From: Fusobacterium ulcerans ATCC 49185
GTDB taxonomy: Bacteria; Fusobacteriota; Fusobacteriia; Fusobacteriales; Fusobacteriaceae
Reading direction: 5' to 3'
Length of the DNA: 64,000 bases
Assembly: GCF_900683735.1 (NCBI RefSeq)
Contig: NZ_LR215979.1
Span: 434,001-498,000 of the forward strand
Part shown: positions 6,759-38,057 of the stretch, piece by piece
Layout of the letters: each line of letters starts with the position of its first letter
Position numbering within the stretch: position 1 is the stretch's first letter
Translations under genes and position numbers: made by a program
The notes under the pieces: generated by a model
Database searches by the model: none
The model's input: only the letters and a program-made list of their open reading frames with translations
What the model was told of the DNA's origin: nothing

Positions 6759-8297
6759 CTATTCAGTTACATAGACATTTGTAAGATCTAAATAACCATT
6801 ATTTTTCATAATAAGATTATGAATATTTTTTCTCATCCCAAGATTTAGTTTTGGATAAAGAATAGTGTAGTGAGGAAGCTCTTCCTGTAATATCTCCTGA
6901 GCCTTTCCATAAAGTTCTTTTCTAACTTTAGGATCCATTGTTATTCTTGCCTTATCAAGAGTATCATCTAAGTCCTTATTTACAAAAGCAGTTACATTCA
7001 TAGAACCTTTTATTTGAGATGAATGGAAAAGAGGATACATAGTTTTATCACAATCTCCATTAGCTGTGTTCCATGACATATAGAAAATAGGTTTTACTTC
7101 ATTCTCATTTTCAATCATTTTAATATAAGTAGCCCATTGGAAAACTTTAATTTCAGTATTAATTCCTATTCCTCTTAACTGCTCCTGAATAATAACACAA
7201 GCATCAATTCTTGCAGAATCATCACTTACCCATAAATCAATATTGAAACCATTAGGGTATCCAGCTTCAGCTAAAAGTTCTTTTGCTTTAGCAGTATTCA
7301 AATCATACTTTTTAGCATCAGGATTGAAATCTGTCATAGCAGGAGGAACTACAGAAGTTCCAGGTGTTGCAGAATCTCCATATATAGCTTGGGTAATAGC
7401 ACTATTATCTACAGCATAAGCTATTGCTTGTCTTACTCTCTTATCTTTCAACAACTCATTTTTAGTATCAAATCCAATAAACTGGCTAGTAGGAGCTTCA
7501 ACTTCAATATAATCTAAAGAGTTGTTGTTTTTGATAGATTTCAAATCCATAACACCCATGTCTAAAGAGATATCAGCTTCACCAGTTTCCAACATAATCA
7601 TTCTGCTGTTATTTTCAGTTATGAATTTAATAACTACTTCTTTAAGTTTTGAAATAGTTCCATAGTAATCATCAAATCTCTCCATAGTAAGTCTATTCCC
7701 TATATCCCATGACTTAAATTTAAATTGCCCAGTTCCTACAGGATTAGTAAGAAATACATCTTCTGAAGATTCAACTAACTTTTTATTAATTATTGAAGAA
7801 TTTGTAATGCTAAGTTGATTCAAAAGGCTTCCAAAAGGAGTATCTGTAGTTATTTTGATAGTATTTTCATCAATTACAGTTACTTCTTTTATAGGAGTGA
7901 AATTATATGCACATTGAGGAAGGCTTCTTGCTCTATCCAAAGAAAACTTTACATCTTCAGCGGTCATAATATCTCCATTGTGGAATTTAACATTTTTCTT
8001 TAAATGGAATATTGTATTTAAGGGATCAACAGATTCCCAGCTTTCAGCTAATCCTGGAAGCAGATTAAGATCTTTATCCATAGTTATCAAAGTATCAAAC
8101 ATAAGCTGAATTATTTTGTTAGACACTGAATCAGTACTTTTTTGTGGATCAAGAGTTTTGATTTCAGCTTTTTGAGCGATAACTAAAGTATCTTTTAGTT
8201 TAACATCTTCTGAAGTTTCAGATTTTATAGCTTTTGTTCCTCCTAATAATAAAGCAAAAGTAAGTAAAAAAATTACAGCCAATAGTTTCTTTTTCAT
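6759..8297 (-). CDS. ABC transporter substrate-binding protein, family 5 (peptide type)
   Basis: 512 residues, the length of DppA/OppA-type periplasmic binding proteins. The signal peptide (residues 1 to about 23) ends in TKA with no lipobox cysteine, so the product is probably free in the periplasm. Family landmarks: KTLDPQKSTD, ESWESVDPLNTIFHLKKNVKFHNGD, a TAEDVKFSLDRA block, and DKRVRQAIAYAVD near residue 285. No permease or ATPase gene is adjacent, so it must serve a transporter encoded elsewhere. Its upstream region holds a promoter, a Trp-rich leader peptide and a terminator (8343-8661), which suggests amino-acid-responsive control. The ligand is unknown. Confidence 0.9.
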   Translation of the reverse strand: MKKKLLAVIFLLTFALLLGGTKAIKSETSEDVKLKDTLVIAQKAEIKTLDPQKSTDSVSNKIIQLMFDTLITMDKDLNLLPGLAESWESVDPLNTIFHLKKNVKFHNGDIMTAEDVKFSLDRARSLPQCAYNFTPIKEVTVIDENTIKITTDTPFGSLLNQLSITNSSIINKKLVESSEDVFLTNPVGTGQFKFKSWDIGNRLTMERFDDYYGTISKLKEVVIKFITENNSRMIMLETGEADISLDMGVMDLKSIKNNNSLDYIEVEAPTSQFIGFDTKNELLKDKRVRQAIAYAVDNSAITQAIYGDSATPGTSVVPPAMTDFNPDAKKYDLNTAKAKELLAEAGYPNGFNIDLWVSDDSARIDACVIIQEQLRGIGINTEIKVFQWATYIKMIENENEVKPIFYMSWNTANGDCDKTMYPLFHSSQIKGSMNVTAFVNKDLDDTLDKARITMDPKVRKELYGKAQEILQEELPHYTILYPKLNLGMRKNIHNLIMKNNGYLDLTNVYVTE

Positions 8298-32675: not shown

Positions 32676-33190
32676 AAAAATTTTACTTTTTATTTGGCAT
32701 TTTAAGATTTTTATATGGTATATACACTATTTTTCAAAAACAGATATTATAATAATTTATGAAATTCATACTTTAGGTAAGTTTTTTTATACTTTTTTTA
32801 ATTAAAAATTAAAATATAAAATTCTAAAATGTAACTTATTGTTTGAGTTATTAATCAATATTTTATGAACTTAATATAGATAAAATGTATTTTTTTTTTA
32901 AAAGTTTAGTAATAAGATAACAATAAAAATATTTTATATTGATTTTTAGTGAGTTTATTTTACGGTTGTTATGTAAAAATGTGACAAATTTGTGTCAGAT
33001 ATACAAAAAAAAATATACATAAAAATATTGAAATAAAAAAAATTCTATCTTATATTAAATGTAGTGCTTGTCTATATACGTAAATAATAGCTTATAAATT
33101 AATGAAATTAAGATATAAAAGAGGAATATATATATTTCTTGCCTTTTTCACATAGATTTCATCAGAATTTATTATATTAATAGTGTAGAA
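32676..33190. other. A+T-rich intergenic stretch upstream of the first porin
   Basis: About 500 bases without a supported ORF. Frequent stops in all frames and long A/T runs. Promoters for the porin should lie near its end but none is clear enough to call. Confidence 0.5.
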
Positions 33191-33197
33191 AACAAAA

Positions 33198-33290
33198 AAT
33201 TATGAGAGTTGCTAATTATCTCATAATTATTTTTCTCTTAATTTAAAGTTATAAGAATGTGACAATTTCCCAGGTTGCCATATTCTTATA
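33198..33290 (+). promoter_or_regulatory. two-hairpin 5' leader of porin 1
   Basis: Hairpin 1: AATTATGAGA/TCTCATAATT, 10 bp, loop GTTGCTAATTA. Hairpin 2: TATAAGAATGTGACAA/TTGCCATATTCTTATA, 16 positions with one mismatch and one G-U, loop TTTCCCAGG. The start codon lies 31 bases after hairpin 2. The second porin gene has the same architecture with different stems but the same loop sequences. Confidence 0.6.
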
Positions 33291-33321
33291 CTTTATATAA
33301 CAAATACTAGGGGGTATTTTT

Positions 33322-34431
33322 ATGAAAAAATCTTTATTATTAGTTGGTGCATTTTTAACAGTTGCAGCAATGGCACAGGCAAAAGAAATAGTTCCTGCTC
33401 CAGTTGTTGTAGAAGAAGCACCAGTACAAGTTGTAGAAAAAGAAGTTATTGTTTACAGAGACAGAGAACCACAAGGATTCAGACCAAATGGATATGTTGA
33501 TTTACAATATAGATATTATGGAGAAGCTGAAGAACTTAACTACAAAAATGATGGTGTAAATAATAACTATGGAAGAACACAGTTAATGGGAAGAATTAAT
33601 ATGACAGAGAAACAATCTTTGGAATATAGAATCAGAACATATAACGACTGGAATTCTTCATCTAATGAAAAGCAAAGAGGAAAAGATGGTACTCAAACAA
33701 GATTGAGATACTTCTATGATCATGGAAATTTAGGAGATTCTAATGTAGATTTAACATCTAGAATAGAATACAGAAAAGAGGCAGACAATGATGCACAATC
33801 ATTAGAATATCAAGCAAGATTTAATTTTGCAGATTATTTATTTAATAATGATTTTGTAAAAACTACTGACTTTACAATTGCTCCTAAATATAAATATTAT
33901 TGGGCATCTAACAGTGATGATTATCAAAATAGACTAGGAATAGACTTATTCACAATGCATCAATTCCCATTAGGATTCTCATTTGAATTTAACTTATATG
34001 GAGATCAATATTTTTATGGACAACGTCAATATACTAGCAGCCATAGTACAGTTAAAGACAACACAGGATTAACAATGGAAGCTTACTTATACAATACAAC
34101 TAACTTATATACAAATGATAAAGTAGATGTAGATTTCTATTTTGAAGGTGGATATGATCCATACAACTGGAATTCAGAAAAAGTGTTAAGAACAGCTATA
34201 TCTAAAGATGATAAGTTAAAAAATGATCCTACAAATTATACTTACAATGATAATACTTATGAATTATATGCTTATCCACAAATTATAACAACTTATAAAG
34301 TTAGCCCTAACTTTAATGTATATGCCTCACTAGGAGCAGAATATAGAAACTGGGCAAATATAAATCAAAAAAGTGCTAAAGACTGGAGATGGCAACCAAC
34401 AGCTGTTGTAGGATTTAAGACAACTTTTTAA
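33322..34431 (+). CDS. FomA-like outer-membrane porin 1
   Basis: 369 residues. Signal peptide (MKKSLLLVGAFLTVAAMAQA, cleavage after AQA at residue 20), then a Pro/Val/Glu-rich linker ending in VEKEVIVYRDR that precedes a FRPNGYVDLQYRYYGE first strand. The rest alternates aromatic and polar residues as in beta-barrels, and it ends in Phe (VVGFKTTF), the outer-membrane insertion signal. A major diffusion porin is the likely role. RBS AGGGGGT. Next to a paralogue (34720-35814) sharing the whole N-terminal region; a terminator separates them. Confidence 0.85.
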   Translation: MKKSLLLVGAFLTVAAMAQAKEIVPAPVVVEEAPVQVVEKEVIVYRDREPQGFRPNGYVDLQYRYYGEAEELNYKNDGVNNNYGRTQLMGRINMTEKQSLEYRIRTYNDWNSSSNEKQRGKDGTQTRLRYFYDHGNLGDSNVDLTSRIEYRKEADNDAQSLEYQARFNFADYLFNNDFVKTTDFTIAPKYKYYWASNSDDYQNRLGIDLFTMHQFPLGFSFEFNLYGDQYFYGQRQYTSSHSTVKDNTGLTMEAYLYNTTNLYTNDKVDVDFYFEGGYDPYNWNSEKVLRTAISKDDKLKNDPTNYTYNDNTYELYAYPQIITTYKVSPNFNVYASLGAEYRNWANINQKSAKDWRWQPTAVVGFKTTF

Positions 34432-34465
34432 ACTTTAAAAGTCTAGAATTTTATATAAAAGGAAG

Positions 34466-34492
34466 AACTCTTTTATTAAAAAGAGTTTTTTC
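34466..34492 (+). terminator. Rho-independent terminator after porin 1
   Basis: AACTCTTTT (34466-34474) pairs with AAAAGAGTT (34479-34487), followed by a T run. Confidence 0.8.
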
Positions 34493-34562
34493 TGTTGATA
34501 AACACTAATAAAACATATTCTCTTCACTTTTCTATATTATATTCTTTGTATAAGAGAAATAT

Positions 34563-34652
34563 TATAAAAGTTGCTAATCTTTTATATATTATTGCTCTTC
34601 CCAAGAATGAGATGATGATTTACCAGTTTCCCAGATTAGGTAAATTGTCATC
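34563..34652 (+). promoter_or_regulatory. two-hairpin 5' leader of porin 2
   Basis: Hairpin 1: TATAAAAG/CTTTTATA with loop TTGCTAAT. Hairpin 2: GATGATGATTTACC/GGTAAATTGTCATC, 14 pairs counting two G-U, with loop AGTTTCCCAGATTA. The loop cores TTGCTAAT and TTTCCCAG are identical to those upstream of porin 1, while the stems differ. Confidence 0.6.
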
Positions 34653-34719
34653 TTTAATGTGAATTATTATATATTTCGATATATATAATTTAAAATATAG
34701 AAAATAGGGGGTATTTTTT

Positions 34720-35814
34720 ATGAAAAAATCTTTATTGTTAGTTGGTGCATTCTTAACAGTTGCAGCAATGGCACAAGCTAAAGAAGTTGTACCTGCTCCA
34801 GTTGTAGTAACAGAAGCACCAGTACAAATCGTTGAAAAAGAAGTTATTGTCTACAGAGACAGAGCACCAGTAGGATTCAGACCAAATGGATATGTAGATT
34901 TACAATACAGATGGTATGGAGAAGTTGAAAACAAAGAAAACGGTGAAGATCGTTGGGCAGGAAAAACTAACTATTCAAGAACTCAGTTAATGGGAAAAAT
35001 CAACATGACTGAAAATCAAGCTTTTGAATACAGAATCAGAAACTATAACAGTGTTTCAGAAAAAGAAGGAACTGGAAAAAATGGTACTGATACAAGATTA
35101 AGATATTTCTATAATCATGGAAATGTAGGAGATTCTAATGTAAACTTTACATCAAGACTTCACTACAGAGACAGAGATGATACTAATGGTCATCAAGAAT
35201 TAGAATATCAAGCAAGATTTAACTTTGCTGAGTACATGTTCAATGGCGATTTTGTAAAAACTACTAATTTCGTAGTTGCTCCAAAATATCGTTATGAATG
35301 GGGATCAGGAAATGATAACAAATATGATAATCAACTTGGTGTAGATTTATACACAATGCATGAATTACCATGGGGATTCTCATTTGAGTTCAACTTATAT
35401 GCAACTCAACATTTCTATGGAGATGATCAAGGATTTGACAATGGTAGAGATATGGAAGACAAAAACTTTACACTAGATATGGAAGCATACATCTACAATA
35501 CAACTAACCTATATACTAATGGGGATGTTACTATTGACTTCAACTTTGAAGGAGGATATGATCCATACACTTGGTCTAAAGAAAAAATGTTTAACAAATC
35601 TGGTGGATATTTAGGAAACTATGGAGATGACAATGCTAGCTATTCACTTTATGCATTACCAACAGTTCAAGTTAATTACCAAGTTACTCCTAGCTTAAAA
35701 GTTTATGCAGCAGCTGGAGCAGAGTATAGAAACTGGGGAATTGACAATGAAAATTCAGCAAGAGACTGGAGATGGCAGCCAACTGTATTCGCAGGATTCA
35801 GATCAACATTCTAG
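34720..35814 (+). CDS. FomA-like outer-membrane porin 2
   Basis: 364 residues, paralogue of the preceding gene. The signal peptide is identical in residues 1-20, and the linker and first strand (GFRPNGYVDLQYRWYGE) are nearly so; the strands and loops diverge in the middle and reconverge at FEGGYDPY and at AGAEYRNWG. Ends in Phe (FAGFRSTF). Same G-rich RBS AGGGGGT. Independent leader and terminator suggest the two porins are transcribed separately and could be expressed under different conditions. Confidence 0.85.
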   Translation: MKKSLLLVGAFLTVAAMAQAKEVVPAPVVVTEAPVQIVEKEVIVYRDRAPVGFRPNGYVDLQYRWYGEVENKENGEDRWAGKTNYSRTQLMGKINMTENQAFEYRIRNYNSVSEKEGTGKNGTDTRLRYFYNHGNVGDSNVNFTSRLHYRDRDDTNGHQELEYQARFNFAEYMFNGDFVKTTNFVVAPKYRYEWGSGNDNKYDNQLGVDLYTMHELPWGFSFEFNLYATQHFYGDDQGFDNGRDMEDKNFTLDMEAYIYNTTNLYTNGDVTIDFNFEGGYDPYTWSKEKMFNKSGGYLGNYGDDNASYSLYALPTVQVNYQVTPSLKVYAAAGAEYRNWGIDNENSARDWRWQPTVFAGFRSTF

Positions 35815-35989: not shown

Positions 35990-36652
35990 ATGAAAAAAAT
36001 TTTAATAGTAGAAGATGAAATGGAGATAAGAAATATTCTGAAGTTGTATCTTCTAAAGGAAGGTTATGATGTGACGGAAGCAGAAGATGGAGAGGTGGCA
36101 ATAAAACTTTTTTATGAAAAACCTTTTGATTTGGTGATACTTGATATAATGCTTCCTAAAAAAGATGGATGGAGTGTTTTAAGAGAAATAAAAAAATATA
36201 GCTCAGTTCCTGTTATGATATTATCTGCAAGAGATGATGATGAAGATGAATTGTTTGGTTTTGAAATAGGAACAGATGAATATATCACTAAACCTTTTAA
36301 TAATAAAATACTTTTAGCAAGAATAAAAGCTCTTATAAAAAATACAAGTAATAATACAGATCACATTATCGAGTTAGGAAAAATAATTATTAATGATACA
36401 TCTCATACAGTGACAGTAGATGGAGAAGAAGTTATTTTAGCACCTAAAGAATATGAGCTTCTAATATACCTTATAAAGAATCATAAAATTGCTTTGAGCA
36501 GAGATAAAATGCTCACTGAGGTATGGGGATATGATTTTCCTGGAAGTGATAGAACAATAGATACGCACATAAAAAACTTAAGAAAAAAACTGGGAGAAGA
36601 ATGTATAAAAACTGTTAGAGGAATAGGTTATAAATTTGAAATAAAGAATTAG
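35990..36652 (+). CDS. OmpR/PhoB family response regulator
   Basis: 220 residues. Receiver domain 1 to about 118 with acidic pocket EDE (8-10), phospho-acceptor Asp52 in LVILDIMLPK, and Lys in the YITKPF block near 102. The OmpR-type winged helix follows (about 128-218) with ILAPKEYELLIYLIKN and GSDRTIDTHIKNLRKKLG. RBS GGGAGG. It pairs with the histidine kinase 16 bases downstream. Location beside the porins is suggestive of envelope control but proves nothing. Confidence 0.92.
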   Translation: MKKILIVEDEMEIRNILKLYLLKEGYDVTEAEDGEVAIKLFYEKPFDLVILDIMLPKKDGWSVLREIKKYSSVPVMILSARDDDEDELFGFEIGTDEYITKPFNNKILLARIKALIKNTSNNTDHIIELGKIIINDTSHTVTVDGEEVILAPKEYELLIYLIKNHKIALSRDKMLTEVWGYDFPGSDRTIDTHIKNLRKKLGEECIKTVRGIGYKFEIKN

Positions 36653-36668
36653 GAGGAACAGTTATTTA

Positions 36669-38057
36669 ATGAAAAAAATTTTTTATAAAATATTCTTTGC
36701 GTTTATTGTAATCTCTTATCTTCCGTTGATAGTGATATATTATTTTAACTTTTTGTATATGGATAAATACATTGTTCAAAATACAAAAGAACAGCTTATA
36801 AAAGTATCCGAAGAAATTTCTATTAAAGATATTCCTCTGGATAGAATAATAGAGAGTAAAGAGAATAAGGACATAAAAGTTGCATATATAAATTTTTCAC
36901 ATTCTAAAAAAGAAAGTGAACTTTTTAATTATTTTAATAAAACTGAAATAAAAGCGAATTTAGAGAAACTCCATACTGGAGATTATACAATAAGACTGAC
37001 AAGTATGACAGACTTTCTTAATTATTTTCTACTTATAAAGAAAATTTCGGACACAGAATTTTTGGTAATTATATCTCCAACCATAGTTCCAAATGTAGTC
37101 ACAAAAATGATGTCATCTTTTTATTTGGATTTATCAGCCTTTATAGTACCAATACTCTTTGTTTTAGCATATATTTTCTCAAAATATTTTTCTGATCCTA
37201 TTGTGACTTTAGAAAAAATATCATCTAAAATATCAAAATTGGATTTTTCATCAAATATAGATTTTAAATATAATAATGAATTGGAAACTCTAGGAAATAA
37301 TTTAAAGAGAATGTCTGAAAAATTAAAAAATAATATAGATGAATTAAATGATTTAAATTCACAAATGAAAATAGAATTGAAAGAAAAAGAGAAATTAATA
37401 AACTTTGAAAAAGATTTTATGCGTTCAATAGGACATGAATTGAAAACACCTATTGCCATAATTAATGGATATATAGAAGCTCTCCAAGATGATATAATAT
37501 CAGATGAAGAAAAAGGAAATGTGTATTCGATCATATATAATGAAGGGATATTTCTTGATAAACTTATAAAGAACTTAAATACATATTTAAAATATGAATT
37601 TAGTTTTTCAGATGAAAGTTATGAAGAATTTCATTTAAAAGACATTTTAGAAGAAAAATTGAATAAATATAATCTTGATTTTATTAAAAAGGATATTGAA
37701 TTAATAACTGATATAGATGAAGATACAATTTTTATTGATAAATATCGCATATCAATTATTTTAAATAATCTTTTTACTAATGCAATTACCTATGTAGATG
37801 ATAGAAAAGTGATAGAAATAGAATTTAAAAATAAAATTTTGAAAATATCAAATAGTTCTGAATTTATACCAGAAGAAAAATTTAAAAATATTTTCAGACC
37901 GTTTTATAAACTTGATTCTTCCAGAAACAGAAAATATGGTGGAGCAGGGTTAGGACTTTCTATAGTAAAAAATATATTAACAAGTTTAAATCTAGAACAT
38001 AGCCTTGTTTTTAATAGCGAAAAAAATTATGTTATATTTACAATTAAATTTAATTAA
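36669..38057 (+). CDS. sensor histidine kinase
   Basis: 462 residues. Two membrane helices (about 8-30 and 152-172) bracket a short periplasmic sensor of about 120 residues. A HAMP-like linker (173-225), a coiled coil, then the H box with His256 in FMRSIGHELKTP, N box LNNLFTNAITYV and G box YGGAGLGLSIVKNI near 430. Partner of the preceding response regulator. Followed by a long hairpin terminator region. Confidence 0.92.
   Translation: MKKIFYKIFFAFIVISYLPLIVIYYFNFLYMDKYIVQNTKEQLIKVSEEISIKDIPLDRIIESKENKDIKVAYINFSHSKKESELFNYFNKTEIKANLEKLHTGDYTIRLTSMTDFLNYFLLIKKISDTEFLVIISPTIVPNVVTKMMSSFYLDLSAFIVPILFVLAYIFSKYFSDPIVTLEKISSKISKLDFSSNIDFKYNNELETLGNNLKRMSEKLKNNIDELNDLNSQMKIELKEKEKLINFEKDFMRSIGHELKTPIAIINGYIEALQDDIISDEEKGNVYSIIYNEGIFLDKLIKNLNTYLKYEFSFSDESYEEFHLKDILEEKLNKYNLDFIKKDIELITDIDEDTIFIDKYRISIILNNLFTNAITYVDDRKVIEIEFKNKILKISNSSEFIPEEKFKNIFRPFYKLDSSRNRKYGGAGLGLSIVKNILTSLNLEHSLVFNSEKNYVIFTIKFN

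Follow-up and report, generated by a model that had tools for sequence, protein, structure and literature searches.

Why should two neighbouring porin genes carry leaders that share the same hairpin loops on different stems? The question is raised by a 64,000-nucleotide window of the Fusobacterium ulcerans genome (G000:C1:434001-498000; positions refer to this window unless another locus is named), in which two FomA-type porin genes are each preceded by a two-hairpin leader. The loops GUUGCUAAU and UUUCCCAG are identical between leader 1 and leader 2, and the stems differ and covary, as a sequence-only reading of this stretch had noticed. That reading took the hairpins for a cis-element read through its loops by a small RNA or a protein, or for an mRNA stabiliser. 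A different account is favoured here. Because a second class of FomA mRNAs in the same genome is complementary, at its translation-start region and 5' end, to the loops and to one arm of a hairpin, the leader most likely acts outward, in trans. We give a probability of about three in four to the reading that it is an antisense element within the 5' untranslated region (UTR) of one porin class that represses the other.

FomA-type porins were sought by protein search in 41 related genomes. Two main classes were found. The first starts with MKKS.LLVGAFL (MKKS class) and carries the two-hairpin leader, and the second, whose short leader lacks the two hairpins, starts with MRKL/MKRL.LLLGSLLVV (MRKL class). 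Eighteen distinct MKKS-class leaders were collected from nine genomes, and a tenth genome (G011) has a leader scoring the same as that of G010. The leader is present in 10 of 12 Fusobacterium species. The members of the genus that lack it (G006 and G008) also lack the MKKS porin class, and every leader-bearing genome also has the MRKL target.

Hairpin 1 and the linker that follows it are antisense to the ribosome-binding site, the start codon and codons 2-7 of the MRKL FomA genes in the same genome. About 33 of 34 nucleotides of leader 1 pair with its own-genome target between about -12 and +21, with one mismatch and one bulge. Right after the start codon, the MRKL genes hold AAUUAGCACUU or GAUUAGCACUU, which encode Lys/Arg-Leu-Ala-Leu and are complementary to loop 1. 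Their start codon and Shine-Dalgarno region are in turn complementary to the 3' arm of hairpin 1 together with the linker. The targets contain GGGGAGATAATTATGAGAAAATTAGCACTT, and its antisense is found in the leaders, for example as GTTGCTAATTATCTCATAATTATTTTTCTC in the window and AAAAGTGCTAATCTTTGTAATTATCTC in G005, where 16 perfect consecutive pairs are formed around loop 1. When leader 1 was compared with its own genome by BLAST, it matched the antisense strand of each of the five MRKL starts at 20 of 21 positions, and the reverse search returned leader 1.

This match is specific. Duplex energies between the leader core and the native target ranged from -21 to -37 kcal/mol across the 18 leaders, compared to a mean of about -15 (standard deviation about 4) for 144 control gene starts. 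None of the controls was as good for 14 of the leaders, and one to three were as good for the other four. After dinucleotide shuffling of either the leaders or the targets, the native energy was seldom or never attained. When 376 gene starts sampled from 10% of the genome were ranked, the five MRKL genes came first with leader 1, second with the third MKKS porin's leader and third with leader 2. Pairing of the leaders with the start site of their own porin was near the control level.

One unrelated start, GGGGGAGGAATAATATGAG (MSCGCGCHDHD...; L159 = G000:C1:1500001-1520000, minus strand, position 7142), came close to the MRKL starts with -34.9 kcal/mol for leader 1, either by chance or as a second target. 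An additional target was sought for the a/b-type loop GTTGCTAAT through its exact complement ATTAGCAAC beside a start codon, and no consistent candidate was obtained in six genomes.

A second contact is indicated by loop 2. The predicted mRNA 5' end of the MRKL porins, a few nucleotides past the -10 box, carries GGGAAA or GGGAG. In leader 1, ATTTCCCA (33265-33272) is complementary to TGGGAAAT at this predicted end. Loop 2 forms 6-11 perfect pairs with the target 5' end, and for 17 of the 18 leaders the longest run is with the native clade. The combination UUUCCC/GGGAAA occurs in the clade of this genome and CUCCC/GGGAG in other clades, so that loop 2 co-varies with the target. In G003, loop 2 is AGATTTCCCA and the target is TGGGAAATCT, and the pairing of AGAUUUCCCA with UGGGAAAUCU is confined to that genome. 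The exception is G005, whose loop 2 fits the target of a sister clade better. A permutation test of the clade assignment placed the native arrangement 2nd of 24, with little power since there are only four clades. The order of the loop 1 and loop 2 contacts is antiparallel between the two RNAs, as it would have to be in a single joint complex.

The structure itself was confirmed, in line with the proposal of the sequence-only reading that a selected RNA structure is common to the porin leaders. Leader 1 folds at -32.7 kcal/mol compared to a shuffle mean of -17.4 (z = -5.1; 0 of 200 shuffles as stable), and leader 2 gave z = -3.4. Across the 18 leaders, loop 1 has the core GCURAU, mostly after GUU or AGU, and loop 2 reads YUCCC in every case, with A or G as the next base. 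A third hairpin is found in many of them. Aligned leader types have little in common beyond the loops and the target-complementary sites. MAFFT and RNAalifold on all leaders missed stems 1 and 2 because the stems are too divergent, and a hand alignment of 13 leaders with N padding was used instead. In this alignment, which was built with both helices in mind and is thus biased to structure with favourable numbers, 82.7% of cells pair, compared to 72.3% in shuffles and 38-60% in slid registers, and 11 of 18 pairs change on both sides, compared to 5.6 +/- 1.5 in shuffles.

A covariance model (R1) made from the hand alignment was run on 61 genomes of the family. Its confident matches lay only 5' of MKKS-class porins of this genus, which agrees with the expectation of the sequence-only reading that further copies would be found upstream of porins. 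No confident copy was obtained in the other genera among these 61 genomes with this model, which misses the third-locus (c) and G007c leaders and could let distant copies escape. The model also matched the minus strand of the MRKL-class porin starts. Weak matches in G021, G057 and G060 (E 0.01-0.08) are probably due to chance. A search with the loop pattern for free-standing copies returned mostly unrelated matches and the antisense strand of MRKL starts. A scan of GTDB contigs gave four loci only, and no relatives of the window porins were found in viral contigs.

The changes in the two stems differ in kind. At well-aligned pairs, stem 1 changes from G-C to A-U or G-U with the purine side constant, and wobble pairing with the target is kept. 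Both GAGAG and AAAAG pair with CUUUU, and both UCUCAU and UUUUAU pair with AUGAGA. The loop 1 variant GCUGAU (G002c and G007c) places a G opposite U and also keeps the pairing with the target. Stem 2, which lies outside the start-site duplex, flips freely among A-U, U-A, G-C and C-G. The compensatory changes of stem 1 therefore look confined to those that keep target pairing, although independent changes are few. In MKKS porins, the Shine-Dalgarno sequence GGGGG is always found in the loop of a small A+U-rich hairpin before the start codon (33302-33321, 34698-34719 and all related leaders).

These features suggest the following course of events. Transcription of an MKKS porin, probably under the adjoining OmpR/PhoB-type two-component system, would bring the leader antisense along. 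Loop 1 (GUUGCUAAU or AGUGCUAAU) would seed pairing with codons 3-6 of the MRKL mRNA, hairpin 1 would open, and its arms and the linker could extend the duplex over the start codon as far as the Shine-Dalgarno sequence. The second contact would be that of loop 2 (UUUCCC or CUCCC) with the GGGA at the target's 5' end. Since the duplex of roughly 33 base pairs (bp) covers the Shine-Dalgarno sequence and the start codon, it should block translation, and it may attract cleavage by RNase III. On this view, one porin type would exclude the other, as OmpR and MicF do for OmpF. With more reserve, we lean slightly towards a fuller version, in which two-contact antisense porin leaders (5' end plus start site) rebuild the OmpR-MicF-OmpF logic in Fusobacteria, with an adjoining two-component system and with the antisense fused to the porin mRNA in place of a small RNA gene.

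Several observations weigh against a trans-acting antisense leader. A search for intrinsic terminators found none within the leader; a free-standing small RNA is therefore not expected, and the active RNA would be the whole mRNA or a processed fragment. The leaders of G005 and G010 pair slightly better with the MRKL starts of other clades; this lack of a consistent native-clade preference at the start region is due in part to the near invariance of that region. At -21.1 kcal/mol the third-locus leader of G001 is weak and is equalled by 3 of 144 controls, the a- and b-type loops require a one-base bulge, and a few unrelated starts score equally with leader 2 and the third G000 leader. The duplex energies also leave out the cost of opening the hairpins.

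Among the alternatives, a switch acting in cis fares best but is unlikely. Here loop 2 (YUCCC) would pair with the porin's own Shine-Dalgarno GGGGG in the small hairpin loop, and a signal on hairpin 1 would control this loop-loop contact. RNAalifold on the 18 leaders recovered the YUCCC/GGGGG pairing in nearly all of them, and for the a-type leaders of G004 and G007 loop 2 scored -13.4 and -10.8 with its own Shine-Dalgarno sequence, compared to -10.5 with the target 5' end. However, loop 2 is never the perfect complement CCCCC, its U to C changes track the 5' end of the partner mRNA while the own sequence stays GGGGG, and loop 1 and the antisense linker are left unexplained. The switch could coexist with the trans-acting antisense, and both loop 2 contacts may be used in turn.

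Improbable is the proposal of the sequence-only reading that the frozen loops are the target of a small RNA or a protein, through which the porins would be coordinated in cis. It would fit the frozen loops with their covarying stems, and also the control of fomA by FoxI and FoxJ in F. nucleatum (PMC11005410), but the loops already have a good complement in the sister porin mRNA. In addition, the C-rich loop 2 has the seed polarity of FoxI and FoxJ and not that of a G-rich target, Rfam at gathering thresholds gave no match in the window, and the confident copies that the covariance model found in the 61 genomes are confined to porin leaders. The reverse direction, in which the MRKL-fomA mRNA binds the leader and thereby controls the MKKS porins, seems just as improbable. 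The pairing is symmetric and binding could free or cleave the leader, but the duplex fully covers the MRKL start site, and the MKKS start site is situated tens of nucleotides downstream of it. It is very improbable that the complementarity goes back to an inverted duplication between porin genes and has survived by chance, with hairpins that do no more than stabilise the 5' end: both genes are FomA paralogues and 5' hairpins are able to protect mRNAs, but the leader types share little besides loops and target-complementary sites, and both the preserved wobble pairs and the co-variation of loop 2 speak against it. A riboswitch was considered and rejected, as the element was found in the 61 genomes only before FomA porins and not as a conserved core before different pathway genes, and its conserved residues are explained by the complementarity.

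For the proposed trans-acting antisense leader, the closest functional analogue appears to be MicF, an Escherichia coli antisense RNA on ompF with a separate gene and transcript. Compared by function, MicF pairs with the start region of a major porin mRNA, is encoded beside another porin and follows the logic of an OmpR-type regulator. The leader shows the same extended complementarity to a porin Shine-Dalgarno sequence and start codon and likewise belongs with another porin, and its control by an OmpR-type regulator is suspected from the adjoining regulator gene and the 11-bp repeats. Unlike MicF, the antisense here lies within a porin mRNA leader and at several loci.

In F. nucleatum, which lacks Hfq and ProQ, the sigma-E-dependent small RNAs FoxI and FoxJ repress fomA through C-rich seeds (PMC11005410). 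Thus, fomA is already a known target of antisense control in this phylum. The sequence-only reading was right to recall such regulation of FomA in F. nucleatum; the hairpins here, however, resemble the regulator and not its target. FoxJ carries its C stretch in a hairpin loop (PMC11005410), as loop 2 does, and loop 2 (CUCCC or UUCCC) offers a C-rich seed complementary to the GGGA 5' end of a fomA mRNA. FoxI and FoxJ are small RNAs and not porin leaders, and the element described here was found only in porin leaders.

Among the cases checked, IpeX and hly-prsA2 appear to be the closest examples of mRNA-derived regulation. IpeX is an RNA derived from an E. coli prophage porin transcript that lowers OmpC (PMC12197685). 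As proposed for the leader, it comes from one porin transcript and acts on another porin, but it is a processed RNA whose action does not rely only on ompC complementarity, and it has no leader hairpin family. In Listeria, the hly and prsA2 mRNAs base-pair in trans (PMC8079631); there a 3' UTR pairs with a distal 5' UTR, the target is stabilised and its start site is not covered. A literature search of partial coverage turned up no described case in which the 5' leader of a porin mRNA serves as an antisense RNA against a second porin.

Expression of one pore type probably represses the other, with no need for a dedicated regulatory RNA gene, and this would give a simple account of how a bacterium that has many FomA-type porins could express one class while another stays silent. 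It suggests antisense control of porins in a phylum in which the model species has neither Hfq nor ProQ (PMC11005410), and makes the element a clear candidate for regulation between mRNAs by way of a 5' leader. Loops that stay frozen while their stems covary can signify outward antisense recognition rather than a cis-element.

Table 1. Leader, porin and regulator features in the window
Feature	Position	Strand	Basis or remark
Promoter-like -35 TTCACA / -10 TATTAT (17-nucleotide spacing) of porin 1, upstream of hairpin 1	33147..33175	+	Consensus match
Leader 1, hairpin 1 (AATTATGAGA-GTTGCTAAT-TA-TCTCATAATT)	33198..33228	+	Sequence, folding, covariance model
Leader 1, antisense segment	33203..33237	+	Pairs with about -12 to +21 of MRKL-class FomA mRNAs; -36 kcal/mol
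Leader 1, frozen loop 1 GTTGCTAAT	33208..33216	+	Antisense of ATTAGCA in target codons 3-6
Leader 1, hairpin 2	about 33250..33290	+	Sequence and folding
Leader 1, frozen loop 2 TTTCCCAG	33266..33273	+	Sequence
Porin 1 own Shine-Dalgarno GGGGG (33310-33314), in loop of small A+U-rich hairpin	33302..33321	+	Folding
Porin 1, FomA family, MKKS class	33322..34431	+	NF049909 513.7 bits (cut-off 350); beta-barrel model
Leader 2, hairpin 1 (TATTATAAAA-GTTGCTAAT-C-TTTTATATAT)	34560..34589	+	Sequence, folding, covariance model
Leader 2, frozen loop 1	34570..34578	+	Sequence
Leader 2, hairpin 2	34610..34653	+	Sequence and folding
Leader 2, frozen loop 2 TTTCCCAG	34627..34634	+	7 perfect pairs with target 5' end
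Leader 2, extra hairpin 3; found in most leaders, not in the leader 1 type	34664..34693	+	Alignment and folding
Porin 2, FomA family, MKKS class	34720..35814	+	NF049909 552.9 bits
OmpR/PhoB-type response regulator	35990..36652	+	Linkage to MKKS porins at two loci here and in several other genomes
Partner sensor histidine kinase	36669..38057	+	Downstream of the window porin pair

Both window porins score far over the cut-off of the NCBIfam family for the major outer membrane protein FomA, and the protein search gave nine FomA-type matches in this genome. The predicted structure of porin 1, of moderate confidence (predicted local distance difference test score 68) and used just to confirm the barrel, is a beta-barrel whose nearest Protein Data Bank entries are OmpG and other porins.

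Judging by the position of the promoter-like site upstream of hairpin 1, the hairpins should be part of the transcript; the number of promoter-like sites around leader 1 is close to the shuffled level. The -35 and -10 elements lie inside 11-bp direct repeats, TTTCACATAGA TTTCATCAGAA, which were read by eye and which we suspect to be an OmpR-type site. Other leaders have such repeats at the corresponding position; at the third MKKS porin (L035), 11-bp direct repeats ATTCACAATTT ATTCATAATTC stand just before the -10 and resemble OmpR-type binding sites. The response regulator encoded downstream of the porin pair is a suspected activator of the MKKS porins. A response regulator gene is also found 3' of MKKS porins in G001-G003, G005 and G009-G011, and not in G004. 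This one genome has two related response regulator/histidine kinase pairs (35990-38057 and L145:249-2321), each directly 3' of MKKS porins. The G001 response regulator gene (L003:2716-3371) aligns as two pieces in differing frames, from a frameshift or a sequencing error.

The five MRKL-class fomA genes of this genome stand in tandem with identical start regions (L164 = G000:C1:2428001-2446000, minus strand, 2433.7-2441.9 kb). Only one of them has a -35/-10 pair (TTTACA-17-TATAAC), and the other four carry a C-rich tract (CCTCCCC...) instead, after a shared AAGGGGGTATGTCTATCC block. The array looks like one expressed gene with silent or differently promoted cassettes. C-rich versions of a similar kind occur in relatives.
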